Positions 2,380 to 61,968 of a stretch of 64,000 nucleotides of DNA are shown here, piece after piece. The DNA lies in contig JASMDC010000008.1 of NCBI GenBank assembly GCA_030753015.1, forward strand, positions 47,645 through 111,644, given 5' to 3'. Both the position numbers and the translations under genes were made by a program. This DNA is from Candidatus Undinarchaeales archaeon. GTDB lineage: Archaea > SpSt-1190 > JASMDC01. The notes below the pieces were generated by a model that saw nothing but the letters and a program-made list of their open reading frames with translations, had not been told where the DNA came from and ran no database searches. Every line of letters begins with the position of its first letter. Positions within the stretch are counted from its first letter, which is position 1.

Positions 2380-5300
2380 CTAGTCACGCTTCCTCCCTAG
2401 ATAGGCCCCCGCCAGTGCCAGCAGGGCCAGCGTCTCCACCACACCCGTACCGGGCGCGGTCACCAGATCGGAACCTCCCTTTGAGCCTGAGAGCACCACG
2501 AGGTTGACGGTGAGCGGATTTGCTCGTATCTCTTGCGGAACGGCAGCGGCCGCCTCGATGACGAGGGTTGTGGTACCAACCTTACCTGCGATAAGGGGAA
2601 CCTGGATGACGCGCTGCTCTCCCTTGGCCAGCTTGTACGTGCACGTCTTGACTCCCACGTTCTCACCGCAGTCGAGGGTTATATGAGTGGTAGCCGAGCC
2701 GGACACGCTCAGTGTCACCGCGATCTCGCCCGCGTAGGGGTTCTGGATGTACACCGGGTAGAGGTGCATGGAGCCCACGGTGAGTGCGAGCGACTTGAGT
2801 TGAGCCTCAGGATCGAAGAACGGCAGGTCGTCGACGCACATGGCCCTGAGCGGCGACCAGAACCATCCTGACCGACAGCACCGGCCGACGGCCGTGATGC
2901 AGTTGCCTGAGACGCACTCCCAGTTGTACCGGCAGGCTCCCATGCGGTACCCGCCCACCTTCAGGTTGACCTTGAATGGTATTTTCTGGACCACATCGCG
3001 GCATTCTGCACCGCTCTCCAGGTCGGGATCACCCTTGCACACTGTCGATGAGATCTTGACCGTGAAGTCCGTGGGACCCGACACCGGCAGCACCACGTAC
3101 TTTGAGGACCGAGGCTGGAGGGTGAGGTTGTAGTACTCACCATCCTTGATGACCAAGGGCTTCCCGGCTGCGTTGATGACCTGGATCGACACGGGCATCT
3201 TGAAGTCCGTGGGATTCTTGATGAACACCGGCACATCGATGATCTCTCCGGGGCCCGTGGTGATCACGTTGGCCTTCACGTCCTTGGACCGATCGCACTC
3301 GGCCTTGGACTGCTTGCATGCCTCCGAACTCTCGTCCTCGAAGCAGGCATCGGAGAAGCAGGCGTCCGAGATCGTCGCCTCGAACCCGCCGACGGTGATC
3401 GGGATCTTGTTGACCACCTTGTTGGCATACGTGCCGTCACCCACCTGGTTCTTGCTCTCCACGATGAGCTCGCCCTTCACGGGTCCGCTCACCGGGATGC
3501 GCACGATCTTGGTGGTCCGCGCCTCCACGTGGCAACCGCCGATGGAGGACATGTCGAGGTCGTTGGAGACCTTCGTGCCGTCATCCTTCTCGTACGCGAA
3601 CGAGATGGCGCACTCCATCTCCGAGTCGGCGGTGTTGGACACCACGGCCTCGATGTAGTCCTTGCCGATGGCGGCCTGCTGGATCATCTGGGTGTTCTGG
3701 AAGAACACGCCCTGGCTCTCGCCCTCCTGCACACCGATCGTCTCGCCGGTAGCGAGCTTGGCTGTGATGAAGACGGTGACCTCGCCGACGTCCTCCAGCG
3801 CGGCCTCGAGGTCGGCCGGGGACGCCGGGCACTCACCAGCAACGCAGTGCGCGATGCGCACCTTGAGGTAATAGGTCGCGATACCCTCGCTCGTCACGTT
3901 GAACACGTACTGGTTGTCCGTCTCGGCACCCAGGTCCTTGGGCGGGTCGGGGAGCGTCTTGAGCAGTGCGTGGTCGGTATCGTACACCTCGACCTTCAGG
4001 CCGAGCGGGTAGGTCAGATGGTTGTCGATGCCGTAGTACCGGTACATCGTCGTCTGGTCTTCCTCGAGCGTGTACGTCAGCTCGTCCACGTTCAGAGCAC
4101 ACTTATCGTTCTCGCACGTCACGATGAACGCGAGGTTCGCTACGAGCTCCTGCTTGGCATCGTCGTCTGGTAGGTCATCCTCTGTCACCTCATCGATCGT
4201 TACATCGGTCTCCACCGACGTGGTGATCCAAGAGTCGTAGTAGATGAGCTGAGCGCCTGCGAACACGGCGTACTTGATCTGCAGGTCAGTGATCGAGGTC
4301 ACCGTGAACTCGATGATCCTCGACTCTCCGGGAGCAAGGCCCGAGAGCATTAGGGACGCCAGGGTCTTGACGCCGGTGGACACGTTCACCTCGACGGACA
4401 CTGTGCTGCCCAGCTGGTTGGTGACCTTCAGGTACTTCTTCTTGACCTGGTCGATGTTGGTACGCAGGGCCAGCACGGGCGGTGGTGAGATGCCGTCGAG
4501 CACGAACTCGGTGTCCGGGACGACGCCGTCCACATCGGTGACATCAGCGAGGCTCGTCTGGGCCTCGGGGACGGGCGGCAGCGGTGTGTAGCAGTCCGCA
4601 GGGCACTTGTTGGGACCGGTCTTCTCGTCCTCCTGGCATACACCGTCGGGGCAGGATGCATCGAGACAGTCGGCACACTCGGGGCCCTCGCCCTTCGCTG
4701 GCTCGCAAACGCCGTCACTGTCGCACGACTCGCACACGCCGCAGTCGGACGGGCAGTTCTCGCAGCTCTCGCCCTGGATCATATCGCACACCAGCGAACC
4801 AGTGAGCGGATCAGGGACGCCGCATATGTCGGGTAACTGACAATCGTCGGGTGCTGACTGCCAGCTCTCCCAGTAGTCACAGATGCCGTTGGCGCATACG
4901 ACCTGGTCACCGGCCTGCTCGTCGGTGAGACCGCAGCAGTCGGCGGGGCAGCTGGCCGTGGTCTCACCGCGCTCGTACTGGCAGTTGTGGTCACCGCACA
5001 CGAAGATGGGTGCAAGGCAATCGCGCGGGAGCGGGTCGAGACCAAGCTCGATGAAGTCGCACACGTCGTTGTCCTGGCACTCCTGTGGACAGTCGCCGTC
5101 GGTCAGCGGATCACAGACACCGTTGTCGCACGTGAGCGGGCATGCACCGCAATCGTTAGCGTGGTCGGTGCAGTCCTCGCCCACCTCGCATCCGTTGGCG
5201 TCAGCGATATGGCGAACGACATCGCACTCCTCGCATATACCGCAGTTGGCCGCGCCCCCGCTGACGGTGCAGCACTCGTTGTAGAGGCATTCCGAGATGG

Positions 5301-8300
5301 GGCCGCAGTGGCCGGGGAAGCACGGCGACGGACCGCTGGCCAGCGGTTCCATGCACGTCCCGCCATCGTCGGGAGAGCAGTACCCCTCTATCGAGGAATC
5401 GTCCTTGAAGAGCCGGCAGTCCGAGCCCGCGCCCAGCCAGCTGATCGTGATCTCCTTCGTATCGAAGGTACCCTGAGCGTCGCGGTTCACCTGCTTGCAG
5501 TAGCGCTGCTCGGCGTCACCGGGGAGGACCCGGGTGTGCGTGTCATCGTCGTAGTCCGTGCACTCGCAAAGGTCCTGATACTTGAACTTCAGCGTGAAAC
5601 CGCGGTTGAACGACGACTGCATGAACTGCCAGGTGTTGCACTCTACCTGGTATACCAGGATTCGGTTCTGGCCGGGCCGCAGGGTGTTGGAGACCAATGG
5701 CTCGGCCGACAGTGTGCAGAAGTTGGACTTCCAGCTGGGATCGGGCTCACCGTTCCCGAGATAGAGCTGGTTCTCCCGTGGGTTGTAGTTGAGGATGTAG
5801 TCGTAGAGGTCGAAGCCGTTCTTGAGGTAGGCGATGCCGTCGCCCAGGTTGGTGAGCACCACGCGGATCTTCTGCACCGGCGAGCAGTGTGGCCATTCGT
5901 CATACCCGTCGGGGATGGCTGTGGTCACCGTGGCGCTGGACACGACCACGTCGGCGGAGCGCCAGATGCCCACCTGTCGGGTGCCCTTGTGCTCATCGAG
6001 CGCGTTGAAGAGGAGCAGATCGTATTTGGGCCGCGTCATCTGGTCGGGGCCGAACGATTCGGTTGGTGTGAAGCTGCAATCGCCCTCGCACGAGGTCGCT
6101 CCCTCACCGCAGGTCCCCGTGGTGATCTGACATTCCGGAGATGCGCCATCGTACTGGAACACCTTGTCATCATGGTCGTCACCGTGGCGTAAGGATATCT
6201 TGCGCAGCTCGGTTGTGCACTGACTGGTGAACCTGAAGTAGAGCGGGTCGCCCTTAGCAGGGCAGACGTTCAGGTCGAGGTCCACGGGCGGATCGTATAT
6301 AGCGATCTGGGGCTTCTGGATCTTGATGTAGAACTCCCCGCACTCGCACCGCTCCTCATCGAACGCACATGTAGTTGGATCGCAGGTGATGCTGCCGTCC
6401 TCGTCCACGTCCCGGGCGATAAGTATCTTGTGCTGGCCGAAGGGCGTCGACTCGGGGATCCGGATGGAGCAGGTAGCATCCTTCTTGTACTCCTTACCCG
6501 TACCAGCATTACAGGTCCCCAGCTTGCGGTCGTCGGCGATGCGGTCCAGGTACACCACGGCCTCGGGGCTGGAGCATGTCACAGTGTAGGAGAAAGTGAT
6601 TGTGGCCCCCGGGCACAGCTCGGTGATGGGAGGCGCCTCGGTGAGGGTTATCTGGGGATCGGCCACCTCGAACACGAGGTCGCCCTGTCCTATACGCCAT
6701 CCGTCAGCGGATTTGGCTGTGCCGGCCGAGCCGAACTTGCATATCCCGCTCAGGGTCCCATCGGAGTACTGGTTGCACCCCCAGGCCCGGTCGCCCTCGC
6801 CACCGCAGTCGGGGCATACGAAGTTACCCTGGGTGTCGCACACACGGGTGGCGGTGTCCACGTAGATGGTGTACACGCCAGGTGCCCTGGGGCCGAGATA
6901 GGTCTTTCCTGTGTTGGCACGGTAGTCGATGTCGTTCCCGGGAGCGTGCCCGTACCGACGCCAGACATCGCAGGTCTGGCCGTCCGTTGCCCGCAAATAG
7001 GCGATGACTCCGGGGCTCGAGACGACCGAGTTGCACGAGCTGTCCTTGCAGAGCATGCACTTGCTCGTGGAGAGGTAGTTCTCGGCCTTGCCGCCCATGT
7101 CGATGATGGGTGACTTATGCGGATCGCACACGGGATTGGACCCCGCGAGGTTGATATCACCGCACCGTGATATGCGGCCATAGGAGTTGAAGGAACCGCT
7201 GCTGCGGGCGCCGTTAGAGCATACGAGGTTGTACTGGCTCACAGAGACGTAGAACTGCAGTGCGTCCCCCGGACATATCTGGTTACCCGTCCGCTCAGCG
7301 TCGATGTCGATGTTGATAGCTCCGGAGTAGGAGATACCGGTGCTCTGGGTGGCACCAACGCTGTGGGTGCATGTTGAGCCCGCACAGGTGGCGCCGAGGT
7401 TCACCTTGCAGTTACCGAGCTTGCATTCGAACGTCTCATCGGCGTTCGCCCCGGTGAGCCTGAGCTTCACTGCTTGTGGGCCTGTGGTGGTCTTGGGATT
7501 GATGGCCAGCCGGCACCAGGGATCCGGGTCCTGCTGGATCGTGGAACCGCCGTTCTCGAGCGACGTAGGCCCCGGGCAGGTGCCCTGGAGCTTGTCCCCC
7601 AGGATCACGTCGAAGTAGGTGCCCGGTGGAAAGCACCTGCTCGCGATGTGGAGGTAGAGCGAGGCCGAGAGGCAGGTGTCCGCGGGGAACACGTACAGGT
7701 CGATGCCCTTCTGGGATATCTCGAGGGTGACGCTGTCCGAGTCCTCGTAGTACATCCCGGACTGGGGGGCTTTTGCGACGATGTTGACCGATGTCTTGCT
7801 GAAGTCCGAGGGGAGCTTGAGCTCGACGTACCCGAAGGCGTCCGGGGTCTGTGTCGCACCTATCTGCTGGTCGCCGTCGAACATCTTGACGGCCACATGA
7901 TCGCTACGGACGACACCCTGACCCCATTCGTCGATGACGCGGACCTTGAACCTCACGCCCGTGCACCCGCTCGGCGGGAGCTCGGTGACGGTCAACTTGC
8001 TCACTAGCTTCAGCTCGGTGATGGCCGTGGAATAGCTGCTCTTGAAGGCCACGATCTCGAGGTCGCCCACGAAGTAGGTCATGTCGATGATCGCTTCTGC
8101 GGCGGAGTCCCAGGTGAACCGGCCTACCGCGTCGGTGGTCCCCTGGCTCATGATCTTCTTGGTCTCGGCGTCGCGCACCTCGATGTTCGCTTCCGGGACC
8201 GGATCGTTCGAGCTGGTCACCACGAACGTGACGGTGCCCTTCGGATGGATGGTGGATACCTCTTGGTCCGAGACGTCGAGGACCTTGAGGTCGATGATGG

Positions 8301-9261
8301 GGATGTCGATGGGGATGAACTGCTCCATCTCCTGGAAAGCGCCGAGCTCGTCCTTGGCGAAGGCGACCAGGCGGTAGTTACCGTAGTCGACGTTGTGCAG
8401 TTCGCACTCCATGGCGTCACCGGCAACGGAGCACTGCTCGATCTTCCCTCCCTCCGGATTGTAGAGCGCCAGGGTCTTCTCCACGATCTCGTCTTCTTCG
8501 GGATCATGCCAGGTGATAGCGATATCGAACTTCGTGATGGTATCGCCGCCCGAGGGGGTGGTGTGGACCTCGATGCTCGCATCAGCGGCACGGGGGTGGA
8601 AGTTGGTGATGGCCAGACGGGTACCGGTGCTGTCCCACTCATCCTCGCCCGAGTCGATGAAGATGCCGCAGCCGAGGATGGGTGTGCCCAACGGATCGAA
8701 GCGGAAGTAGAGGAAGTCGTTGTCGATCCGGTCTATGGTCGCCTCCACTCGGTGATCGGCCATGGTCATCTCGCAAATATTGGTGATGGCCTCCGACCCG
8801 CGGAACTCGAACCACTCGTCACCGTTCTCTGGATCACAGTCAAGGGTCGAGTAGTGTGTGTCGCTCGAGCAGAGGGCTACACGGTACTCGGGAGGTGCTG
8901 CGCAGTTGGTGGAAGGATAGTACCAGAGCTCTGCCTTGTGGTTCAGGTAGGTCGTCGTGTTGAACAGCACACGGACGTACTTGGGATTCTGGGAAGGATC
9001 GTGATGCTGTGGTTCGTTGGTGATGCACGCCTCGTTGCGGGTGAACCGCTTCCAGAGGCAGGGATCGTCCCCCTCCACCGTAGCGACAGCACAGGCCGCG
9101 TCGATGATGGTGTCGGTCACATTGTCATCCTCACCGTTCTCGATAAGGACGATGAGCGTATCCTTTGAGCGGACCTCACCCTCGTCCCCCACTGCCGGTA
9201 GCAGTACGAGACCCAGGAGCACGCATGTTATGAACAGGGCATATTTCCGATCAATCGACAT
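2380..9261 (-). CDS. Giant exported Cys-rich Ig-like surface protein (2,293 aa)
   Basis: An N-terminal signal peptide (about residues 7-26) is followed by a long series of beta-sandwich, CARDB/Ig-like segments. A dense Cys-rich block at about residues 1290-1560 contains repeated CGxxxCxxGE...CPxDC-type modules. A second small Cys cluster lies near residues 2105-2145 (CRYNWECVSGNC). The C-terminus has a Pro-Gly segment (APGTGVV), one hydrophobic helix and a GRKRD tail. That tripartite tail resembles archaeosortase signals such as PGF-CTERM, though the motif is not canonical. The start has a GGGAGG ribosome site, and a TATA element lies at 9299-9306. It is most likely a cell-surface or S-layer-associated protein whose folding needs disulfide formation. 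No catalytic domain was recognised. Confidence 0.88.
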   Translation of the reverse strand: MSIDRKYALFITCVLLGLVLLPAVGDEGEVRSKDTLIVLIENGEDDNVTDTIIDAACAVATVEGDDPCLWKRFTRNEACITNEPQHHDPSQNPKYVRVLFNTTTYLNHKAELWYYPSTNCAAPPEYRVALCSSDTHYSTLDCDPENGDEWFEFRGSEAITNICEMTMADHRVEATIDRIDNDFLYFRFDPLGTPILGCGIFIDSGEDEWDSTGTRLAITNFHPRAADASIEVHTTPSGGDTITKFDIAITWHDPEEDEIVEKTLALYNPEGGKIEQCSVAGDAMECELHNVDYGNYRLVAFAKDELGAFQEMEQFIPIDIPIIDLKVLDVSDQEVSTIHPKGTVTFVVTSSNDPVPEANIEVRDAETKKIMSQGTTDAVGRFTWDSAAEAIIDMTYFVGDLEIVAFKSSYSTAITELKLVSKLTVTELPPSGCTGVRFKVRVIDEWGQGVVRSDHVAVKMFDGDQQIGATQTPDAFGYVELKLPSDFSKTSVNIVAKAPQSGMYYEDSDSVTLEISQKGIDLYVFPADTCLSASLYLHIASRCFPPGTYFDVILGDKLQGTCPGPTSLENGGSTIQQDPDPWCRLAINPKTTTGPQAVKLRLTGANADETFECKLGNCKVNLGATCAGSTCTHSVGATQSTGISYSGAINIDIDAERTGNQICPGDALQFYVSVSQYNLVCSNGARSSGSFNSYGRISRCGDINLAGSNPVCDPHKSPIIDMGGKAENYLSTSKCMLCKDSSCNSVVSSPGVIAYLRATDGQTCDVWRRYGHAPGNDIDYRANTGKTYLGPRAPGVYTIYVDTATRVCDTQGNFVCPDCGGEGDRAWGCNQYSDGTLSGICKFGSAGTAKSADGWRIGQGDLVFEVADPQITLTEAPPITELCPGATITFSYTVTCSSPEAVVYLDRIADDRKLGTCNAGTGKEYKKDATCSIRIPESTPFGQHKILIARDVDEDGSITCDPTTCAFDEERCECGEFYIKIQKPQIAIYDPPVDLDLNVCPAKGDPLYFRFTSQCTTELRKISLRHGDDHDDKVFQYDGASPECQITTGTCGEGATSCEGDCSFTPTESFGPDQMTRPKYDLLLFNALDEHKGTRQVGIWRSADVVVSSATVTTAIPDGYDEWPHCSPVQKIRVVLTNLGDGIAYLKNGFDLYDYILNYNPRENQLYLGNGEPDPSWKSNFCTLSAEPLVSNTLRPGQNRILVYQVECNTWQFMQSSFNRGFTLKFKYQDLCECTDYDDDTHTRVLPGDAEQRYCKQVNRDAQGTFDTKEITISWLGAGSDCRLFKDDSSIEGYCSPDDGGTCMEPLASGPSPCFPGHCGPISECLYNECCTVSGGAANCGICEECDVVRHIADANGCEVGEDCTDHANDCGACPLTCDNGVCDPLTDGDCPQECQDNDVCDFIELGLDPLPRDCLAPIFVCGDHNCQYERGETTASCPADCCGLTDEQAGDQVVCANGICDYWESWQSAPDDCQLPDICGVPDPLTGSLVCDMIQGESCENCPSDCGVCESCDSDGVCEPAKGEGPECADCLDASCPDGVCQEDEKTGPNKCPADCYTPLPPVPEAQTSLADVTDVDGVVPDTEFVLDGISPPPVLALRTNIDQVKKKYLKVTNQLGSTVSVEVNVSTGVKTLASLMLSGLAPGESRIIEFTVTSITDLQIKYAVFAGAQLIYYDSWITTSVETDVTIDEVTEDDLPDDDAKQELVANLAFIVTCENDKCALNVDELTYTLEEDQTTMYRYYGIDNHLTYPLGLKVEVYDTDHALLKTLPDPPKDLGAETDNQYVFNVTSEGIATYYLKVRIAHCVAGECPASPADLEAALEDVGEVTVFITAKLATGETIGVQEGESQGVFFQNTQMIQQAAIGKDYIEAVVSNTADSEMECAISFAYEKDDGTKVSNDLDMSSIGGCHVEARTTKIVRIPVSGPVKGELIVESKNQVGDGTYANKVVNKIPITVGGFEATISDACFSDACFEDESSEACKQSKAECDRSKDVKANVITTGPGEIIDVPVFIKNPTDFKMPVSIQVINAAGKPLVIKDGEYYNLTLQPRSSKYVVLPVSGPTDFTVKISSTVCKGDPDLESGAECRDVVQKIPFKVNLKVGGYRMGACRYNWECVSGNCITAVGRCCRSGWFWSPLRAMCVDDLPFFDPEAQLKSLALTVGSMHLYPVYIQNPYAGEIAVTLSVSGSATTHITLDCGENVGVKTCTYKLAKGEQRVIQVPLIAGKVGTTTLVIEAAAAVPQEIRANPLTVNLVVLSGSKGGSDLVTAPGTGVVETLALLALAGAYLGRKRD

Positions 9262-14604: not shown

Positions 14605-15783
14605 TCATGCTGTTACCTCCAGGGGGTGTGCCAGCACCCCGTTAACGCGCCCTCCGAAGACGACGCCTATATTGATCGCACCCACAGTGTCCCGGTGCGC
14701 TTCTATGCCGCATGATCTGCACTTCAGAAGACGACCCCTCTTCGTCACTGATGTGTCGCCACACCAAGGACACACGCTTGATGTGCCTCTCTCGTCGATC
14801 ATGGTCACTTTGATCCCATACTCTTGGGCGACACACTGAAGCCGTTCCAGGAGAAAGCGGTGGCTCCAGAAGTTGTGGATCATCGAATCCGACTTCTTGC
14901 CGAATGTGGCATTGTCCCTGATCCCCGTGAGGTCACCTACGACGATCTCGCTGACACCTTCCCGCCAGAGCCGTTCGATCGCTTTCCTGACGATCGTGTT
15001 TACATACTGCCGGAAGCGTAGCTTCCGCTTGCGGAACAAGGAGCGGATCTGCTTTGTCGTCTTCCTGCCGTTCGTCCTCTTCGCTATCGACTTCAGCCGG
15101 TCGATACGACGTGATAGATACCACCAGTCGGAAAGTGCGGGTCGCCCACTGTACGCGATCGATCGCCTATCCCCTTCGATCACTACATCGAGCAGTTCGA
15201 GCACGCCAAGGTCCACGAAGGCCCTCTTGTTCGAGAGCGGTTGATGTGGAGGATCGACCTCCACGATCTGCCTGGCATACCATTTCCGTCTGATGGAGTC
15301 ATACAGAAGGGTCAGCAACCCTTGCCTTGTCCGGTCGTTCCATTTCGGTTTTCCTCTCCAATTCACCTCCAACTTTTTCGGCAGCTTCAATATACTGCCT
15401 TCTATCGTATAGCAATCGCATCGGATGAGTATGAGCTGCTTCCTCTTCCCCGTTGACCTGTGCTTCCAGTATCCGGGAGGGCTCACTCTCTGGATGCGGG
15501 GCGGGAGCTTGCCCTTCTTCTTGAGTTCGAGCAACGCGAAGAACGAACGCCAAGCCTCGCTGTTCTTCCTCTCGATCTGCTGAGCTGTCGCAGAGCCAAT
15601 GATGCACTTGTATCTATCGTACAGGTCCTTCGTGTTCCAGTTCACCTTGTCTGCGTTGAAGATGCTCTGCCTTCGTCGATAGCTGATCTCGTTCCAAAGG
15701 CGAGCACAACCATCCGCGAGCTCATGCAGTCGTTCGTCTTGTTCCAACGAAGGTGACAATGCAAAGGTGTTCGTTCTCCTCAT
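14605..15783 (-). CDS. tnpB: TnpB RNA-guided nuclease-like protein (392 aa)
   Basis: The fold order is typical: N-terminal HTH/OrfB region, RuvC I Asp in AFVDLG, RuvC II segment EIVVGDLTGIRDN, a four-Cys zinc ribbon (CPWCG...CRSCG) and RuvC III Asp in AHRDTVGAINI. The Glu usually seen in RuvC II (VVEDL) is Gly here. Some TnpB groups are thought to use a relocated Glu, and the MIDERGTSS segment offers one; otherwise the protein may be nuclease-dead. The length is intact with no frameshift. TnpB cuts DNA at the donor site under guidance of an RNA from the element's end, promoting element retention. Confidence 0.88.
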   Translation of the reverse strand: MRRTNTFALSPSLEQDERLHELADGCARLWNEISYRRRQSIFNADKVNWNTKDLYDRYKCIIGSATAQQIERKNSEAWRSFFALLELKKKGKLPPRIQRVSPPGYWKHRSTGKRKQLILIRCDCYTIEGSILKLPKKLEVNWRGKPKWNDRTRQGLLTLLYDSIRRKWYARQIVEVDPPHQPLSNKRAFVDLGVLELLDVVIEGDRRSIAYSGRPALSDWWYLSRRIDRLKSIAKRTNGRKTTKQIRSLFRKRKLRFRQYVNTIVRKAIERLWREGVSEIVVGDLTGIRDNATFGKKSDSMIHNFWSHRFLLERLQCVAQEYGIKVTMIDERGTSSVCPWCGDTSVTKRGRLLKCRSCGIEAHRDTVGAINIGVVFGGRVNGVLAHPLEVTA

Positions 15784-23266: not shown

Positions 23267-25519
23267 TCACCGCCGGTCACGGCCGCCACCACGGCGGTCA
23301 CGGCCGCCACCACGGCGGTCGCGGTCCCTGCCGCCACTCCGTCGGGGGCGCTCTGGCTCGACCCACCCGGGCGGCGGGGGGTGCAGGGCCTTCATGGACA
23401 CGTCGACCTTTCCGAAGGCGACCTTGGTCACGATGACCTTCACCTTGTCACCGAGCTTGACCCTGTCCTCGATCTTGTCCACGTGGCCGTACTCGAGCTC
23501 CGAGATGTGGAGCATCCCGTCCTTGCCGGGGATGAGGTTGACGAAGGCGCCGAAGGGCTTGATGGTGACCACCTCGGCCTCCTCGTAGATCTCGCCCACC
23601 TCCACATCGCGCACGATGTTGCGCACGGCCTTCTCGGCCTTGGCGGCCATCTCGGCGTCGTTGGTGGTGATCATCACCGTGCCATCGTCCTCGATGTCCA
23701 TCTGAACGCCGGTCTCATCAGTGATGCTCCGGATCATCTTCCCGCCAGGGCCGATGACCGCACCGATCTTTTCCGGATCGATCTTTAAGGCGATGATGCG
23801 CGGTGCGAACTCAGACAGCTCCTTCCTCGGCTCGTTGATCGCACCCTGGATGACGTCCAGGATGAAGTTGTTCGCCATCCTCCCCTGGGAGACCGCCTCA
23901 CGGATGATGGGCATGGAGATACCGCGGGTCTTAGTGTCCATCTGGACGGCAGTGACGCCGTCACGGGTGGCGGTGATCTTGAAGTCCATGCCACCGTCGC
24001 CGTCCTCCATGTCCTGGATGTCCGTGATGACCTTCCAGCGCTCACCATCGGAGGCAAGCCCGATAGCTATCCCTGCAACAGGCTTCTTGATCGGGACGCC
24101 TGCGTCCAGGAGGGCCAGCGTCGATCCACAGGTGGAACCCATGGACGAGGAGCCGTTGGAGCTCATGACCTCGGAGACCATCCTGATGGTGTAGGGGAAC
24201 TCCTCCAGAGTGGGGAGCACCGGGCGAAGGGCCTTCTCTGCCAGCATGCCGTGGCCCTGCTCTCGTCGGCCGGCGCCACGGAGCTTCTTGACCTCGCCCA
24301 CGCTGAACGGTGGGAAGTTGTAGTGATGGAAGTACCGCTTCTTGATGTCATCCTCCATCGACTCCACGATGAGCGTGTCGCCGGGGGCGCCCAGGGTGAC
24401 CACGGAAAGGATGTGGGTCTCACCACGCTGGAAGAACCCCGTGCCGTGGAGGCGGGGGAGCACCGCGACATCGGCCGCTAGATGCCGGATGTCGGTGATC
24501 TTGCGGCCATCGACGCGCTGTTCGCGGTCCAGGAGGGCTCGTGTGACCTGATCGTCGATGAACGCCTGGAAGCACTTTTTGAGGATGCCCTTGAGATAGG
24601 CCTTGGCGGCCTCCTCGTCACGCTCCTCGTTGATGTACTCCCTGGCCATCTCGTTGACAACCAGTTCCTTCATCTCCTCCATGATCTCCTTGCGCTCACC
24701 CTTGGAGCCGAGGGGTTGGTTGAAGACATAGGTCTGAAGTTGCGGGACCATGCGCTCCTTGAGCCGGTCGGCAACGACCTTCTCCTCGGGAGCGAGCTCG
24801 CCCGTGAACTTCAGGTCCTCCCTCTTTGCCTTGGGCTTGCCGATCTGCTGGCGTACGTCCTCGATGAAGGCGCACAGCGGGCCCAGGGCCTTCATGGCCT
24901 CTTCGAAGGCGCCCACCATGACCTCGTCCGGGGCCTCGTTGCAGTTGCACTCCACCATAGTGATGCGGGAGCCGTCCCCGGTTACCAGGAGGTCGACCGT
25001 TGACTCTGCGAGCTCTTCCACGGTGGGGTTCACGATGTACCGACCGTCGATGTAGCCGATGCGGACACCGGCCACCGGTCCGTCGAAGGGGATCGTGGAG
25101 AGGTGGAGGGCCATGCAGCCGCCGATGAGGGAGGGGACGTCGGGCTTGTTCGCCTCGTCGAAGGTGAGGGGCATGCAGATGACCTGGACCTCGTTGCGCA
25201 TGTTCTGGTCGAAGAGCGGGCGGATACCGCGGTCGATGGAGCGACCGGTCAGCACAGCGTCGAGGGAGGGTCTGCCTTCCCGCTTGGTGAACCTGGAGCC
25301 CTTGATGCGCCCGCAGGCGTAGTACCGCTCTTCGTATTCGACCATGAGAGGGAAGAAGTCCATCCCTTCGCGAGCGGAGGGGGACATGTTCGCAGAGCAG
25401 AGCACTACCGTATCGCCTAGTTTCACAGTGAGGGCGGCGTCGGACTGAGGTCCGTAACGTCCCGTCTCGATCGTGAGCGTCTTTCCTGCTACATCGCAGG
25501 TGAATTGTCGAATGTTCAT
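23267..25519 (-). CDS. pnp: Polyribonucleotide nucleotidyltransferase (bacterial-type PNPase)
   Basis: A 750-aa phosphorolytic 3'-5' exoribonuclease. All five bacterial domains are visible: RNase PH 1 (KREGRPS loop), helical linker, catalytic RNase PH 2 (SSNGSSSMGSTCG phosphate site; GGMDFKITATRDG metal and catalytic Asp/Lys), KH (IGAVIGPGGKMI, about 580-640) and S1 (GAFVNLIPGKDGMLHIS). An RG-rich tail (residues ~725-750) of repeated GGGRDRR units is added. Archaea normally use the Rrp41/Rrp42 exosome, so this gene was probably acquired from bacteria. Codon use matches the surroundings. The promoter CATTTAAAAGG lies just upstream of the ATG. Confidence 0.95.
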   Translation of the reverse strand: MNIRQFTCDVAGKTLTIETGRYGPQSDAALTVKLGDTVVLCSANMSPSAREGMDFFPLMVEYEERYYACGRIKGSRFTKREGRPSLDAVLTGRSIDRGIRPLFDQNMRNEVQVICMPLTFDEANKPDVPSLIGGCMALHLSTIPFDGPVAGVRIGYIDGRYIVNPTVEELAESTVDLLVTGDGSRITMVECNCNEAPDEVMVGAFEEAMKALGPLCAFIEDVRQQIGKPKAKREDLKFTGELAPEEKVVADRLKERMVPQLQTYVFNQPLGSKGERKEIMEEMKELVVNEMAREYINEERDEEAAKAYLKGILKKCFQAFIDDQVTRALLDREQRVDGRKITDIRHLAADVAVLPRLHGTGFFQRGETHILSVVTLGAPGDTLIVESMEDDIKKRYFHHYNFPPFSVGEVKKLRGAGRREQGHGMLAEKALRPVLPTLEEFPYTIRMVSEVMSSNGSSSMGSTCGSTLALLDAGVPIKKPVAGIAIGLASDGERWKVITDIQDMEDGDGGMDFKITATRDGVTAVQMDTKTRGISMPIIREAVSQGRMANNFILDVIQGAINEPRKELSEFAPRIIALKIDPEKIGAVIGPGGKMIRSITDETGVQMDIEDDGTVMITTNDAEMAAKAEKAVRNIVRDVEVGEIYEEAEVVTIKPFGAFVNLIPGKDGMLHISELEYGHVDKIEDRVKLGDKVKVIVTKVAFGKVDVSMKALHPPPPGWVEPERPRRSGGRDRDRRGGGRDRRGGGRDRR

Positions 25520-55818: not shown

Positions 55819-55953
55819 CTAACCGAACACACGGTCCCGGTCGAGCTTTACCATGACCTTGTTTATGCGCGATAGTTCCAACCAGACATAGAAGCCGATG
55901 ACAAAGTAGATCCACTGCGTGTACAGCAGTGCGTCGGCCGTTGTTCCGATCAC
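55819..55953 (-). CDS. Very small membrane protein (44 aa)
   Basis: GTG 55953 overlaps the stop of the 47-aa gene (GTGA). One membrane helix (ALLYTQWIYFVIGFYVWLEL) and a basic tail (SRINKVMVKLDRDRVFG). Coupling to its neighbour and sensible composition support it. Nothing was seen in 55712-55818. Confidence 0.5.
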   Translation of the reverse strand: MIGTTADALLYTQWIYFVIGFYVWLELSRINKVMVKLDRDRVFG

Positions 55954-56093
55954 TCGTCCTCGCCGCCCTTACCATGCTTCTCTGCAAGCCCTTCGACGGC
56001 CTGGCGGAGCCGCCGCACCTCGTAGCAGAGGAGGGCACCGAAGATAGCTAGTGGTACCTGGCTGATGATGACAGATTCCGGTGTCGTGAGCAT
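55950..56093 (-). CDS. Very small membrane protein (47 aa)
   Basis: ATG 56093 with AGGGAGAG upstream and a CGTTTAAGG promoter element about 30 bases before it. One helix (SVIISQVPLAIFGALLCYEV) and a charged tail (RRLRQAVEGLAEKHGKGGEDE). It sits directly behind the PP-loop gene at 56119 on the same strand. Confidence 0.55.
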   Translation of the reverse strand: MLTTPESVIISQVPLAIFGALLCYEVRRLRQAVEGLAEKHGKGGEDE

Positions 56094-56118
56094 AGTCTTT
56101 CTCTCCCTTCGATTATCC

Positions 56119-57237
56119 TTAAACGTCTTTTCCACTGCGGGCACCACCCAGGCCCACTGCCTGTTTCGCACGCAGCCCCAGATAGCTGTAGATCGTTCCT
56201 GTCAGACGCCGAAGCTGCTGGTTCCAGAGGGACGCTGCCGAGAAGTACACCAGGCCCTCCACGAACATGGATGACAGCATGAAGAACCGCACGATGTCCC
56301 CGATCGCCCGATTGGGCGCGCCGGCCTCATCGTACTGCTGTCGGATGGTCTTGGCGGTCTGCTCCTCGGGAGAGAGTTCGCGGCGGTGGTCCATGCTGGC
56401 AAGCACGTCCTCGGGTGGTATCGACTGCTCACGCACGCGTTCGATGAGCGCATCGAGGTCCTCACCCTTCTCCTCAAAGTATGCGCGGATGATCGCTCTA
56501 CCGTAATCGAGGTCCGACTCCAGGTGGCGCACGACCTCTTCGTGGATGAGATTGTCCGAGTATGGATTGGAGAGGAACACGCCCACGACGTTGGCGAGCA
56601 CACAGTAGGGCTGACGGTGTATGTGGTAGCCTTTAAGGCCCGGTGCACGGACACGGTTCCCCATATCGATACCAAGCTCACGAAGCGCTGCGTCCTCCTT
56701 CCCCACTGTGTAGAAATAGGATGGGTGGATGTGGCGGATGCCGTACTCCCCGTAGAAGCGCTTGAGCGTGTCGAGCACGCCGGGCATCTGTTCCGGATTG
56801 TGCACCTCCTCCTGGATAGCGCCGTCGGCCGCCAGCGGTATGGCGTTCTCGAGACAGTATATGATCGTGCGTACGTGCATGATGAACTTGCATGTGATAC
56901 AGGCGAAGTGAAGACAGTCCCAGTGACGAACCTGGTTGTCCATCCACCAGGGAGGGATCGGCATGATGGAATGGCGCACCTTACCAGGGAAGGCACGCTT
57001 CAGGGCATCGGACGACTTCTCCGAGAACTTAACGAATATATCGACGTCCGTCTCGTAGGTGACTAGATGGACCTCATCAAGGAGTCGGGATAGAACGCCC
57101 GAGGCCAGCGACGAGTCGCCGCCACCCGAGAACATCACCGCTGCCCGACGGGGTGTGCCCTTCGTCACTTCCCCCGGATCCGTGTCGGTTGATTTAAAGG
57201 TTTGCGCTCCTCCGCTGTCGGCGCGGTCGCCCTCCAT
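56119..57237 (-). CDS. PP-loop ATP-pyrophosphatase-type enzyme A with CxxC (372 aa)
   Basis: The PP-loop motif SGGGDSS (residues 37-43) opens a HUP/adenine-nucleotide alpha-hydrolase fold. About 75 residues later comes ACITCKF (CxxC) in a conserved context shared with the enzyme at 58057, then RHIHPSYFY and RAPGLKGYHIHRQPYC. The last ~120 residues are helical with hydrophobic stretches and may contact the membrane. PP-loop enzymes adenylate a substrate carbonyl or carboxylate (QueC, ThiI, TtuA, asparagine synthetase families). It forms an operon with the CCG membrane protein (57250), with GAGGAGG upstream of its ATG. The reaction is unknown. Confidence 0.78.
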   Translation of the reverse strand: MEGDRADSGGAQTFKSTDTDPGEVTKGTPRRAAVMFSGGGDSSLASGVLSRLLDEVHLVTYETDVDIFVKFSEKSSDALKRAFPGKVRHSIMPIPPWWMDNQVRHWDCLHFACITCKFIMHVRTIIYCLENAIPLAADGAIQEEVHNPEQMPGVLDTLKRFYGEYGIRHIHPSYFYTVGKEDAALRELGIDMGNRVRAPGLKGYHIHRQPYCVLANVVGVFLSNPYSDNLIHEEVVRHLESDLDYGRAIIRAYFEEKGEDLDALIERVREQSIPPEDVLASMDHRRELSPEEQTAKTIRQQYDEAGAPNRAIGDIVRFFMLSSMFVEGLVYFSAASLWNQQLRRLTGTIYSYLGLRAKQAVGLGGARSGKDV

Positions 57238-57249
57238 TCGCGTCCCTCC

Positions 57250-57630
57250 TCACGCGATAGGGAGCTGCCCGATGGCCCCGATAACGACCAGGACGAGTGC
57301 CAGCATCACCACGACACCTGAGACCGCGCACAGGGGAGCGAAGTTACGGTACACGATACCGCCCACGCCGGGCGAGTGCCTGAGGATGCGTCCCACAAGT
57401 CGACACCGCGCTCGCGGGCTCACGTCGGGTTCGGCCAAGAGGGCAGGGGCGGTGTCAGTCAGGTAGGATAGATAGAAATGCGCAGGGGCCCTGTACCGTG
57501 GGAGCACGATGGCCGTGAGAACAAGCACAGGAACGAACACGAGGTTGAACGCCGCCGTGACCACGAGCGCCAACAGAAAACCCACGTACGACACGGGCTC
57601 CCGTCCCTCGGTCCCACCACAGCACACCAT
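57250..57630 (-). CDS. CCG membrane protein A (126 aa)
   Basis: Begins MVCCGG, then a hydrophobic helix pair region (FLLALVVTAAFNLVFVPVLVL), a basic cytoplasmic-like loop (RARCRLVGRILRHSPGVG) and a C-terminal helix (AVSGVVVMLALVLVVIGAI). It aligns along its length with the protein at 58810 (MPCCG; CKLTGQLMPRYP; VVGMFALVVLV). CAGGAGTG lies before the ATG. The paired N-terminal Cys residues could bind a metal, form a disulfide or be lipid-modified. No family known to me. Confidence 0.75.
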   Translation of the reverse strand: MVCCGGTEGREPVSYVGFLLALVVTAAFNLVFVPVLVLTAIVLPRYRAPAHFYLSYLTDTAPALLAEPDVSPRARCRLVGRILRHSPGVGGIVYRNFAPLCAVSGVVVMLALVLVVIGAIGQLPIA

Positions 57631-57674
57631 AGCGGCTCACTCCTGTATCTCTCTATAATACATAAACGGGGTAA

Positions 57675-57697
57675 CTATATTAACTTAACGCCGTTAA
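57675..57697. promoter_or_regulatory. Promoter and palindromic operator between the two PP-loop operons
   Basis: CTATATTA (57675-57682) is a TATA box for the regulator gene at 57709. Just downstream, TTAACG-C-CGTTAA (57685-57697) is a perfect 6-bp inverted repeat between the TATA box and the start codon, a normal place for a repressor site. The adjacent COG2522-like HTH protein is the likely ligand-responsive binder (inference). Confidence 0.65.
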
Positions 57698-57708
57698 AAT
57701 AGTATATT

Positions 57709-58053
57709 ATGAAGCCACCATGCGAGATCGTGACCATGCACATCCTCCCCGCGGTCAGGGCTTCCTTGTCGCGTACGCTTGTTGAGAAGCATGGGATGAA
57801 GCGTGCAGTCGTCGCCAAGCGATTGGGCGTCACCCAAGCCGCTGTGACACAGTATTTCAAAGCGGTGAGGGGCACCCGGAACAAGGCTCTCATCAACGAG
57901 AACTTCAGTGACCTCATCGATGAGATCGCCGCCCGCATCGCACGGGGTGAGGGTGAGCTCGAGACAATCTGCGGTCTCTGCAGGACCATCCGCAGTAATG
58001 AGCGATTCAAGCAGTTCCTTGAGCAGGACCACTGCGACCTGTGCACGGAGTAG
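57709..58053 (+). CDS. COG2522-like HTH regulator with C-terminal Cys motif (114 aa)
   Basis: Starts MKPPCEIV and has an XRE-like helix-turn-helix (RAVVAKRLGVTQAAVTQYF). The C-terminal end carries ICGLCRTI and HCDLC, four Cys suitable for metal or thiol sensing. Many archaeal COG2522 proteins share this plan. ATG 57709 is leaderless relative to the TATA at 57675. It starts the operon with PP-loop B (58057) and CCG membrane protein B. Confidence 0.85.
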   Translation: MKPPCEIVTMHILPAVRASLSRTLVEKHGMKRAVVAKRLGVTQAAVTQYFKAVRGTRNKALINENFSDLIDEIAARIARGEGELETICGLCRTIRSNERFKQFLEQDHCDLCTE

Positions 58054-58056
58054 GCC

Positions 58057-58809
58057 ATGCTGAAGCGGGATAAAAAGCGAGAGGCACCACCTGACGCTCG
58101 CGGGGATGGTGTTGCTGTCCTCTTCTCCGGGGGAGTCGACTCGACAACAGTGGCCGTGCTGGCCGCCGAGCGGTTCAAGCAGGTCCACCTCCTCACCTTC
58201 AATACGGGTTTCCTCTACAACATGGACCTCTCCCGTAAGCACGTTGGCACCCTTAAGGAGCTCTTCGGTGATGATGCCATACGTCACGAGTTCATCGACA
58301 TCCGGCGCATCTGGCGCGCCGTCCAACGCACGAACGTCACAAAGGGCCTGCGGCGCTACCGCTCATGGTTCATCCTGTGCATGGGGTGCAAGCTGACCAT
58401 GCACGCAGCCACCATCCGTTACTGTCGTGAGCACGGGATCCACACCGCCTATGGCGGCGAGAACGTGTGCCAGGACCAGTATCCCGAGCAGAAGCAGGCC
58501 ATCCTCGAAGAGCTCCAGAACCTGTACCAGGACTACAGCATCACATACGAGTCGCCGGTGTACGACTACACGTCGATGGAGGAGGATACCAAGCTCCAGG
58601 CCCTCGGGTTCCGGCTCGGACATCACCTCAAGCTCTTCCCTAATACAAAGGGTTCCTATCACGGCACTCAACCATTCTGCCTCTCCTTCCCCCTCTATCC
58701 TTTCGCAAACGCTTTCCCACCAGAGGACACTCCCGTCGTCGAGTACCTCCGAGAGCACCTTCCCCGGGCTCGAGCGTACATCGAGGACGGTCATCCGGGT
58801 GATGATTGA
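58057..58809 (+). CDS. PP-loop ATP-pyrophosphatase-type enzyme B with CxxC (250 aa)
   Basis: SGGVDST at residues 24-30 is the PP-loop. LCMGCKLTMHAATI carries the CxxC at residues ~108-111, with the same spacing as in enzyme A. YGGENVCQDQYPEQK probably lines the active site. It is shorter than enzyme A because it lacks the C-terminal helical extension. It lies three bases after the regulator, and its stop abuts the ATG of the next gene. Sulfur insertion or carboxylate activation are possible reactions; the substrate is unknown. Confidence 0.8.
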   Translation: MLKRDKKREAPPDARGDGVAVLFSGGVDSTTVAVLAAERFKQVHLLTFNTGFLYNMDLSRKHVGTLKELFGDDAIRHEFIDIRRIWRAVQRTNVTKGLRRYRSWFILCMGCKLTMHAATIRYCREHGIHTAYGGENVCQDQYPEQKQAILEELQNLYQDYSITYESPVYDYTSMEEDTKLQALGFRLGHHLKLFPNTKGSYHGTQPFCLSFPLYPFANAFPPEDTPVVEYLREHLPRARAYIEDGHPGDD

Positions 58810-59130
58810 ATGCCGTGCTGTGGCGTATCTCCCGACACGAACACGCCGTTCACGCGACTCTTCGTTTTCGTGCTCGGACTCTTCCTCAGCTTCCTGGCAC
58901 TCGTGAGGCCCGGGTACGGTACGCTTGCAAAGAACGCCTATGCCTACGTTTTCAAGGGTACGGACATGGAGCGGCGGGTGAAGTGCAAGCTCACCGGCCA
59001 GCTCATGCCCCGGTACCCGCGCCTGGCCAGCTACGTCTACAAGAGCTACGAGGTGAACTTCCTACGGGCGTCGGTTGTTGGGATGTTCGCTCTGGTCGTC
59101 CTCGTTCGTCAGGCACTGGTGACGTTGTGA
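58810..59130 (+). CDS. CCG membrane protein B (106 aa)
   Basis: MPCCGV N-terminus, a helix (LFVFVLGLFLSFLALVRPGY), a basic loop with CKLTGQLMPRYP, and a C-terminal helix (RASVVGMFALVVLVRQALV). Homologous to the protein at 57250 and, like it, encoded next to a PP-loop enzyme. Translation is probably coupled because its ATG directly follows the PP-loop stop. Confidence 0.75.
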   Translation: MPCCGVSPDTNTPFTRLFVFVLGLFLSFLALVRPGYGTLAKNAYAYVFKGTDMERRVKCKLTGQLMPRYPRLASYVYKSYEVNFLRASVVGMFALVVLVRQALVTL

Positions 59131-59644: not shown

Positions 59645-60679
59645 TCACGCACCGATGTAGCGGGCATAGAGCGAGCGTGCAATGCTCGGATCATCGGTCC
59701 CACGGACGAGGGCTCGGCCGTCCCTGAACACCACCAGCTCGTGCTCAGCGAGTGCGAGGGTGAGCGTGTGTTCTGTCAACCGCACCTCACCAAGGCCCTG
59801 GAGACGCTCCGAGAGCTCCGGAAGGGATAGTTCCCCTGATTTGGCCGGAGTCACCTGCACCATCCGTCGACCGCACAGGACAGTGGTCAGACCGGTCCGT
59901 CCGCCCTCAAGGAACTCGAACCGCCCCTCTCCGCAGCATCCGCATCGAGGGTCCCGTGCGACCTCCACTCGCCGCAGCTCACGTCGCCAGGCATCGTAGA
60001 CGACCAGGTCACGGTCGATGTCTTCCCAACCCAGGATGAGCTTGAGTGCTTCGGTGGTCTCCAGTGCGCCGATCACCAGGGGAAGGGTGTTGAGCACACC
60101 GACGCGGTCGCACGTGTCGAGCGAGCCCGGTGGGGGCAGGGAGGGCAGACAGCACCGTAGGCAGGGCGTGTTTCCCGGGACTATGGTCAGGGTCATCCCC
60201 AGGGTGGCCACGGCACCACCGTACACCCATGGGACACCATGTTTTACACACGCGTCGTTGAGGAGGAACCGGCTCTCGAGGTTGTCGGTGCCATCTACGA
60301 CAACGTCCATTCCGACAAGGAGGTCCTCCACGGTGGCAGGGCCAACATCCTTGACGATACCCTCCACGACCACGTCATGGTTTACGGTCTGGAGGCGCTC
60401 GACCGCAGCGACTGCCTTAGGCGAACCTACGTCGCTCTCATCGAACAGTACCTGACGCTGAAGGTTGCTCAGCTCCACAAGGTCACGGTCGACTAGCCGT
60501 ACATGGCCCACGCCCGCCCTGACAAGGGCGGAGGCCACGACCGTGCCCAAGGCACCGACACCGATGATCAATACAGATCCACGAGCGAGCCGTTCCTGTC
60601 CCTCGGCACCGATCTCGGGGAGGATTACCTGCCTTCCGTACCTTTCCTCGGACGGTCGGGGACCATCGGTACTCGACAT
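59645..60679 (-). CDS. ThiF/MoeB/HesA-family E1-like adenylyltransferase (344 aa)
   Basis: GVGALGTVVASAL is the nucleotide site, followed by DRDLVELSNLQRQVLF, DGTDNLESRFLLND and the zinc Cys pairs (CLRCC and CGCCG). About 100 extra C-terminal residues (VTPAKSGELSLPELSERL) are a small domain seen in some archaeal relatives. It activates the C-terminal Gly of ubiquitin-like sulfur carriers (SAMP, MoaD, ThiS) for sulfur transfer. ATG 60679 suits the TATA GTTTTTATCC at 60704-60713; ATG 60688 is also possible. Confidence 0.88.
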   Translation of the reverse strand: MSSTDGPRPSEERYGRQVILPEIGAEGQERLARGSVLIIGVGALGTVVASALVRAGVGHVRLVDRDLVELSNLQRQVLFDESDVGSPKAVAAVERLQTVNHDVVVEGIVKDVGPATVEDLLVGMDVVVDGTDNLESRFLLNDACVKHGVPWVYGGAVATLGMTLTIVPGNTPCLRCCLPSLPPPGSLDTCDRVGVLNTLPLVIGALETTEALKLILGWEDIDRDLVVYDAWRRELRRVEVARDPRCGCCGEGRFEFLEGGRTGLTTVLCGRRMVQVTPAKSGELSLPELSERLQGLGEVRLTEHTLTLALAEHELVVFRDGRALVRGTDDPSIARSLYARYIGA

Positions 60680-60783
60680 GATGCTCATAAGTAGGAGGAA
60701 CAGGGATAAAAACATGGCCTTTAACGCCTTTCCTCGCTCGGGCCCAAGCGAAAAGTCCTAAAACCTTCCCCTCCTGCGACGGG

Positions 60784-61968
60784 ATGATGGCGCCACAGGG
60801 GACCGTGCTCGTGCGATATGGTGAGCTCGCGCTGAAGAAGGGCAGTATCCGCACCGGTTTCGAGCGGGAGCTCGTCCACAACATCAAGCGCCTCCTTGAG
60901 CACAAGGGCATCGACGGGAAGGTCTCACGGGACCGTGGACGCGTGTTCATCGCCACTGATGAGCCACGTGCGGCGGCCGAGGCGACCTCACGCGTGTTCG
61001 GCGTCACATCATGCTCCGTCGTCGAGACCTGTGGCGTCGAGATGGATGTCATCGTTGACGCTGTCGCCTCCTTCGCAGCGGAACACCTCCCCGCCGACAC
61101 CTCGTTCGCTGTCCGGGCCCGCCGCGCCGGTAGTCACTCGTTCACCAGCATCGATGTCGGGAAGGCCGTCGGCCAGGGCATACGCGACGCACGGCCGGAC
61201 CTCACAGTCGACCTGGAGGCACCGGCGAGCGAGGTGTTCGTAGAAGTGCGACAGAAAGAAGCGTACTACTTCTTGGACCGAGTGGAGGGCCCCGGCGGTC
61301 TCCCCCTTGCCACCCAGGGCAGGACCGCGGTCCTAATCTCCGGGGGTATCGACTCGCCCGTTGCCGCATGGCTCATGATGAAGCGTGGTTGTGTCCCCGT
61401 CTTCGTCCACTTCGTGCTCGATCCCTTCTCCGACATGGCCAACCGCGACCGCGCGGTGGACATGTGCCATCGCCTAAAAAGCTGGGCCATCGGCCGCAAG
61501 GTCAAGCTCTATCTCGTGCCGCACGGAGAGAATCTCGCCGAGATCGCACGCTCGTGCCCGCATCACCTCCAGTGCGTCCTGTGCCGCAGGATGATGTACC
61601 GCATCTCCGATGTCATCGCAGAGCGCGAGCGTGCTCTCTCGCTCACAACGGGGGAGAGCCTCGGGCAGGTGGCCTCACAGACCGCAGAGAACCTCTTCGT
61701 CGAGAATCGGGTGGCTAATCGACCAGTGTTCCGCCCGCTCATCGGCCTGGACAAGCTCGAGATCATCCGTATCGGTGAGCGCATCGGCACCTTCGAGGTC
61801 TCCAGCAAACCAGCAGGGTGCTGCACGATAACACCTGACCGTCCCGAGAAGCGGGGGAAACTCCCTATCGTCGAGGAGGCGGAGCAGGCGCTGGACATCG
61901 ACGCCCTTGTGAACGCGGCCCTAAAGGGCGCCAAGATCGTCGAAGTGGAGGCCAAGGAATGCGAGTGA
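60784..61968 (+). CDS. thiI: tRNA 4-thiouridine synthase ThiI
   Basis: 394 residues: NFLD plus THUMP domain (RYGELALKKGSIRTGFE; YYFLDRVEGPGGLP) and a PP-loop domain (VLISGGIDSPVAAW; CVLCRRMMYR). There is no rhodanese domain, as in other archaea, so sulfur must come from another donor. It makes s4U8 in tRNA. Start ATG 60784 or 60787, nearly leaderless from CTAAAACC at 60757-60764. Divergent from the E1-like gene, also in sulfur transfer. Confidence 0.93.
   Translation: MMAPQGTVLVRYGELALKKGSIRTGFERELVHNIKRLLEHKGIDGKVSRDRGRVFIATDEPRAAAEATSRVFGVTSCSVVETCGVEMDVIVDAVASFAAEHLPADTSFAVRARRAGSHSFTSIDVGKAVGQGIRDARPDLTVDLEAPASEVFVEVRQKEAYYFLDRVEGPGGLPLATQGRTAVLISGGIDSPVAAWLMMKRGCVPVFVHFVLDPFSDMANRDRAVDMCHRLKSWAIGRKVKLYLVPHGENLAEIARSCPHHLQCVLCRRMMYRISDVIAERERALSLTTGESLGQVASQTAENLFVENRVANRPVFRPLIGLDKLEIIRIGERIGTFEVSSKPAGCCTITPDRPEKRGKLPIVEEAEQALDIDALVNAALKGAKIVEVEAKECE

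Follow-up and report, generated by a model that had tools for sequence, protein, structure and literature searches.

What reaction is served by an archaeal locus in which two PP-loop ATPases are each paired with a small cysteine-containing membrane protein, around a cysteine-rich regulator? The locus occupies positions 55819-59130 of a 64,000-nucleotide stretch of DNA (hereafter the window) from contig JASMDC010000008.1 of a Candidatus Undinarchaeales archaeon, whose metagenome assembly comprises 3.85 Mb in 117 contigs. An initial annotation had described two PP-loop ATPases, two membrane proteins starting M-x-C-C-G and a Cys-rich helix-turn-helix (HTH) protein; all of these open reading frames (ORFs) are present, and the main five show a coding-like codon bias. 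The answer we favour, and consider probable, is a membrane-associated, ATP-dependent sulfur-insertion module present in two copies, in which the membrane protein, a member of what we term the CC family, is the dedicated partner of the PP-loop enzyme. Since this undescribed pair recurs in bacteria beside sulfur-supply enzymes, it looks like an undescribed route of sulfur addition.

The CC family and its pairing with PP-loop genes

Two gene groups diverge near 57.7 kb. The plus-strand arm runs from the HTH gene (57709) through PP-loop B (58057) to CCG2 (58810), with 0-3 bases between genes, and the minus-strand arm, read from the promoter, consists of CCG1 (57630 downwards), PP-loop A, a 47-aa ORF and a 44-aa ORF. 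The arms are thus not the mirror images they had been taken for, CCG1 standing first on one side and CCG2 last on the other. CCG1 (57250-57630, minus strand) is a tri-Cys membrane protein with the start MVCCGG, cysteines at positions 3, 4 and 76, and predicted hydrophobic stretches at about residues 12-46 and 92-110. CCG2 (58810-59130, plus strand), which follows the stop codon of PP-loop B with no intervening base, starts MPCCGV, has cysteines at positions 3, 4 and 59, and is likewise a predicted membrane protein.

Within the 3.85-Mb genome, CCG1 and CCG2 are each the other's sole significant match elsewhere (E about 0.002). A first profile built from three CCG proteins returned only noise beyond one Myxococcales locus (L033) in 377 Myxococcota genomes; in L033, MACCGG- and SufS-like genes lie beside a PP-loop gene. 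The family was revealed by using the PP-loop enzyme as bait and reading its downstream gene: at 18 bacterial loci the next gene 3' of the PP-loop gene starts M-x(-x)-CC-G/N, within 22 nt at all but L087 (202 nt). A profile from bacterial members only, excluding L033, clearly ranked CCG1 first when all six frames of the window were searched (E 1.6e-8) and found CCG2 at noise level only, so that CCG2 joins the family through CCG1, L033 and the joint profile (CCG1 1.1e-26, CCG2 3.3e-11, with both included in that profile). By these matches the two proteins are homologous, as the initial annotation had proposed.

Alignment of 21 members from this archaeon and from bacteria, mainly Myxococcota, left only three invariant columns, corresponding to C3, C4 and C76 of CCG1. 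Gene calling gave 599 genes for these regions; ten of them start M-x(1-3)-CC, and all ten are family members, although the gene caller missed several others. CCG1 and CCG2 both show the features by which we define the family, namely an N-terminal CC, a third Cys, small size and a PP-loop neighbour. The family is absent from the libraries searched (Pfam, NCBIfam and PADLOC), and plasmid searches with CC proteins gave no matches.

When the bacterial CC profile was run against 282 Myxococcota genomes, 19 matches were obtained, one per genome, and 18 of them lie directly 3' of a PP-loop gene, 16 at a spacing of 0-22 nt. The remaining one (in genome G178) directly precedes an IscS-like desulfurase gene, and its PP-loop gene is on another contig. 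As the profile was mostly built from those 18 members, they are not independent evidence; the independent part of the test is that no further free-standing CC members appeared. Of 394 archaeal genomes, this one alone clearly has the family, with both copies adjoining PP-loop genes, and one further match (E 0.008) was taken as noise. The CCG proteins and their relatives therefore neighbour PP-loop genes almost without exception. In the PP-loop tree, enzymes with CCNK partners form one supported clade (100/99) and the CC type is clustered, as expected for co-inheritance. The suggestion that one pair was duplicated from the other found no backing, as PP-loop A and B do not come out as sisters in a tree of 52 PP-loop proteins; its long branches are without support, and the CC tree is too short to settle the matter.

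PP-loop enzymes and their cysteines

PP-loop ATPase A (56119-57237, minus strand) carries SGGGDS37, C113xxC116 (CITC), C128 and C212, and PP-loop ATPase B (58057-58809, plus strand) carries SGGVDS24, C108xxC111 (CMGC), C123 and C208; both are YcfA-like. The CxxC had been placed 75-85 residues past the P-loop, and recomputed spacings of 76 (PP-loop A) and 84 (PP-loop B) agree. PP-loop A has in addition a C-terminal hydrophobic segment (residues 311-339) without counterpart in PP-loop B. Pfam and NCBIfam gave general PP-loop assignments only (QueC, Asn synthase, LarE and ThiI models), and PP-loop B falls below all NCBIfam equivalog cut-offs: 35.5 versus 150.3 bits for QueC (TIGR00364), 22.4 versus 150 for LarE (TIGR00268) and 13.7 versus 264.5 for ThiI (TIGR00342). 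Its Pfam QueC match is confined to the N-terminal PP-loop part.

Two further PP-loop paralogues are encoded in the same genome (L002/L121 on contig C37 and L003/L122 on contig C29), and a profile of all four found one strong solved relative, 9kq6 (E 2.7e-27). A structure search with the PP-loop B model, which has a predicted local distance difference test (pLDDT) score of 79.6, ranked YcfA of Erwinia amylovora first (9kq9; Z 26.9, 1.9 Å over 211 residues), followed by the 4-thiouridine synthetase ThiI (Z 16.7) and by QueC, ArtA and LarE (Z about 13-14). The YcfA structure was solved with GTP. In E. amylovora, two genes, of which YcfA is one, are reported to be both required and enough for 6-thioguanine (PMC7994395). 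A plasmid homologue in Staphylococcus chromogenes lies in a cluster with the order aminotransferase V-PP-loop-NUDIX-DMT-NUDIX-HAD, the layout of the 6-thioguanine tgs operon, tgsA-F (PMC7994395).

A genome scan with the PP-loop alignment located eight bacterial loci, and the enzyme is carried by 39 of the 282 Myxococcota genomes. Among the 394 archaeal genomes the family proper occurs in this genome only, with a distant set in one genus; the enzyme had no match on viral contigs and none in phage. Of the two paralogues outside the window, that of L121 lies near a radical S-adenosylmethionine (SAM) gene, with several large multi-pass membrane proteins also encoded nearby, resembling bacterial clusters of the family, and that of L122 lies immediately 3' of genes for flippase-like membrane proteins and a carbamoyltransferase, as is common in Myxococcota.

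The cysteines vary by class. In PP-loop B numbering, C111 is kept in every aligned relative except the Tgs-like enzymes, C208 in all except these and three distant archaeal proteins, and C108 in most; Tgs-like/YcfA-type enzymes have lost all three. Nine proteins with Phe in place of C108 (FxxC) have Cys at 123, and eight of the nine partner CCGGKNAGK proteins. Several enzymes with MGCCNK partners, and some others, have Asn at 123 and keep C108, and L029, L031, L033 and L112 have Ala at 123 and retain C108, C111 and C208. Outside the Tgs-like and distant archaeal sets, at least three of the four cysteines (108, 111, 123 and 208) are thus always present.

The combination of SGGxDS, CXXC and a distal Cys is found in both archaeal enzymes (PP-loop A: 37, 113/116, 212; PP-loop B: 24, 108/111, 208). 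In TtuA, CXXC...C is the ligand pattern of a [4Fe-4S] cluster, as it is in LarE. LarE of Thermotoga maritima receives its sulfur from IscS and needs, for the transfer, the [4Fe-4S] cluster that it binds through CXXC...C (PMC9283937). By analogy, the CXXC and distal Cys of PP-loop A and B probably hold a three-Cys [4Fe-4S] cluster.

Sulfur genes, proposed mechanism and alternatives

Sulfur-supply genes recur beside the bacterial pairs. A SufS-like gene directly follows the CC gene in all seven MGCCNK loci (L026, L092-L095, L098 and L102); the L102 protein scores 388 bits with the SufS subfamily model, whose cut-off is 475, and is SufS-like by that model. L092 and L093 also carry CysK and serine acetyltransferase genes, with a DsrE/TusD-like protein in L093; an IscS/NifS-like gene follows the CC gene in L087, and a NifU-type scaffold is encoded about 3 kb away in L085. 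The initial annotation had proposed either sulfur transfer or carboxylate activation. Together with the LarE/TtuA-like CXXC...C, the SufS/IscS, CysK, serine acetyltransferase, DsrE and NifU neighbours strongly favour sulfur transfer, and carboxylate activation without sulfur is less likely.

From the computed family identity, gene pairing, invariant cysteines and sulfur-gene neighbourhood we infer the following scheme. The PP-loop enzyme, a member of the YcfA family, would use ATP to adenylate a substrate oxygen, which sulfur would then replace with release of AMP. Its three-Cys [4Fe-4S] cluster would present an extra sulfide, as proposed for T. maritima LarE and TtuA. The CC protein would recruit the enzyme to the membrane (in the archaeal and MGCCNK forms clearly), and the Cys pair at its N-terminus would act with the third Cys in receiving or relaying sulfur from a cysteine desulfurase. 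In bacteria the donor would often be encoded by the next gene, and in this archaeon by IscS and SufS genes located elsewhere under a paralogue of the regulator. The two copies of the module may serve two substrates or two sulfur sources. The presence of GTP in the YcfA structure favours a nucleotide or nucleotide-linked intermediate as substrate. A fuller version, in which the tri-Cys protein passes desulfurase persulfide in a membrane-bound relay to a docked PP-loop enzyme with a [4Fe-4S] cluster, which in turn thiolates a novel membrane- or lipid-linked metabolite, with the system shared by Myxococcota and one archaeal lineage via horizontal transfer, is put forward tentatively and is, as a whole, doubtful.

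Five bacterial loci (L081, L082, L085, L087 and L095) contain carbamoyltransferases, in most cases with a radical SAM gene and in part with glycosyltransferases and a metallo-beta-lactamase fold hydrolase. This suggests that the product is further decorated there, and the carbamoyltransferase and glycosyltransferase neighbours favour a carbamoylated or glycosylated product in this bacterial group. Beside the carbamoyltransferase/radical SAM genes, L085 (7991-8977), L087 (3723-4907) and L095 (9301-10293) encode proteins of 328-394 aa that are alike by eye; the two scanned (L085 and L095) had no Pfam match. On other PP-loop branches (L032, L096, L110, L112 and L119), an SxtJ-like small membrane protein and a carbamoyltransferase follow the PP-loop gene. 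SxtJ-type proteins with NodU/TobZ-type carbamoyltransferases offer a parallel layout of PP-loop enzyme and small membrane protein, but SxtJ-like proteins have no CC start and the archaeal locus has no carbamoyltransferase.

Several observations weigh against sulfur insertion with a dedicated CC partner. Both PP-loop paralogues outside the window (L121 and L122) are without a CC partner, which is thus not essential to every PP-loop member. Members of the CCGGKNAGK class show no clear membrane helix by hydropathy in nine of 11 cases, an adjoining desulfurase gene in one of 11 loci (L087), and FxxC rather than CxxC in most of their PP-loop partners. The archaeal locus itself is without a cysteine desulfurase, the genome-wide copies being unlinked. 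The structure model of CCG1 is poor (pLDDT 63, predicted template modelling score 0.36), so that no complex can be argued from structure.

The same genes can be read in other ways. The PP-loop enzymes could prepare a carbonyl or carboxylate for nitrogen attack, in the manner of QueC, Asn synthetase or ArtA nitrile synthetase, in which case the cysteines would hold a structural metal and the CC protein would be a membrane anchor only. Among Pfam/NCBIfam models, PP-loop B matches QueC best (35 bits), the QueC and ArtA folds reach Z 13-14, and bacterial relatives adjoin carbamoyltransferases and in some loci a DegT-type aminotransferase. However, the QueC score is far under its curated cut-off, the closer structural matches are YcfA and ThiI, which are both sulfur-insertion linked, and a desulfurase gene accompanies seven of seven MGCCNK pairs, with cysteine-biosynthesis genes in two; we think this reading unlikely. 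Alternatively, the CC protein could itself be the substrate, its cysteines matured to thioamide or persulfide by the PP-loop enzyme to give a membrane-bound thiol- or metal-handling peptide resembling a ribosomally synthesized and post-translationally modified peptide. Its small size, the tight adjacency, the restriction of invariance to three residues that are all Cys, and SPASM-type radical-SAM genes in several CC-bearing clusters would fit, but we noticed neither a leader/core split nor a protease or exporter, L095 was the one MGCCNK locus in which a radical SAM gene was observed, and the conserved hydrophobic middle suits a membrane partner, which makes maturation of the CC protein quite improbable.

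The nearest characterised relatives raise the further question of whether a thionucleotide, for example 6-thioguanine, is what the module produces or handles. Among solved proteins YcfA comes closest, and its structure was determined with GTP; YcfA and TgsB belong to the same PP-loop subfamily by sequence and fold, and a class V aminotransferase/PP-loop pair occurs in both systems, the Tgs SufS-like partner having its counterpart in many CC-bearing loci. Yet YcfA and TgsB have lost CXXC and the distal Cys, and the Tgs-type loci read show no CC membrane partner; the NUDIX, HAD and DMT exporter genes of Tgs are absent from both arms in the window, and relatives of them were not found near CC-bearing loci. 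A thionucleotide product is, on this comparison, very improbable. Anti-phage defence was also considered and rejected, as PADLOC gave weak matches only (QueC and RmrA; E 0.0013 to 0.0052) to PP-loop and HTH regions and the PP-loop enzyme matched nothing on viral contigs or in phage.

Other sulfur-inserting enzymes share some features with the locus and differ in others. LarE of the T. maritima type and TtuA share SGGxDS and the CXXC...C cluster ligands, and LarE takes sulfur from IscS, but PP-loop B lies outside the LarE model (22 bits versus 150), no Lar or tRNA-modification context was seen, and we know of no membrane partner for insertases of this type. ThiI is the second-best fold and shares PP-loop sulfur insertion and a Cys motif after the PP-loop, but neither PP-loop A nor B matches a THUMP or ferredoxin-like RNA-binding domain. 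Those PP-loop sulfur insertases that we know to have been characterised are soluble and act on tRNA, nucleotides or cofactors. Dedicated pairing with a membrane protein implies that sulfur is handled at the membrane and that a product containing sulfur awaits discovery. While PP-loop sulfur insertion is known chemistry, the literature searched appears to hold no description of the partner family, of its link to the membrane or of the gene module: no paper was found on a comparable PP-loop/membrane-protein pair, in line with the initial annotation, nor on YcfA with thioguanine after 2021. A family that Pfam, NCBIfam and PADLOC lack, tied to sulfur trafficking as a tight genetic partner, raises a testable question in the role of its two adjacent cysteines.

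Regulator, small ORFs and neighbouring genes

The HTH regulator (57709-58053, plus strand) contains C5, C88xxC91 and C109xxC112, the latter two being the CxxC ends noted earlier. Contig C34 of this genome encodes a paralogue (31% identity, E 3e-18) immediately 5' of IscS and SufS, with a CysK-like gene alongside. That this paralogue heads an IscS-SufS operon suggests that it and the locus regulator share thiol, Fe-S (iron-sulfur) or metal sensing. A third IscS-like gene in this genome (L149, contig C21) lies directly 3' of a 120-aa protein that is DsrE-like by eye.

Between the divergent genes, a TATA-like sequence CTATATTAA (57675-57683), read from the DNA, is located 26-34 bp before the HTH ATG and would suit a leaderless transcript. 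It is followed by the perfect palindrome TTAACG-C-CGTTAA (TTAACGCCGTTAA, 57685-57697), a candidate operator that ends 11 bp before the HTH start, a position that would suit autorepression. The palindrome is present as annotated; its operator role is unsupported, since palindromes with 6-bp arms arise in 9% of shuffles of the 78-bp gap, which makes the palindrome alone weak evidence. A regulon-wide operator was rejected, as TTAACGCCGTTAA has exactly one copy in the 3.85-Mb genome and none 5' of the regulator paralogue.

At the end of the minus-strand arm, a 47-aa single-helix ORF (55953-56093, minus strand) lies 3' of PP-loop A, and its stop is overlapped by a 44-aa hydrophobic ORF with a GTG start (55819-55953, minus strand). 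The described overlap and hydrophobicity hold, and position alone ties the two to the locus, as candidate members. The 44-aa ORF has no convincing family match in Pfam or NCBIfam and the 47-aa ORF none, and neither has relatives in the compared loci of the PP-loop family.

Two sulfur-transfer related genes adjoin the locus, encoding a ThiF/MoeB-like E1 enzyme (59645-60715, minus strand) and a full ThiI (60784-61968, plus strand). Ribosomal genes of archaeal type and TFIIB-like genes also lie in the window, as do genes for a protein of 2293 aa that is probably secreted (2380-9261, minus strand) and a 750-aa protein (23267-25519, minus strand) whose start resembles, by eye, bacterial polynucleotide phosphorylase, which is unusual for an archaeon. 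Closely similar 392-aa proteins, TnpB-like by eye, are encoded at 14605-15783 (minus strand) and at L121:2804-3982, perhaps marking a mobile element at both sites.

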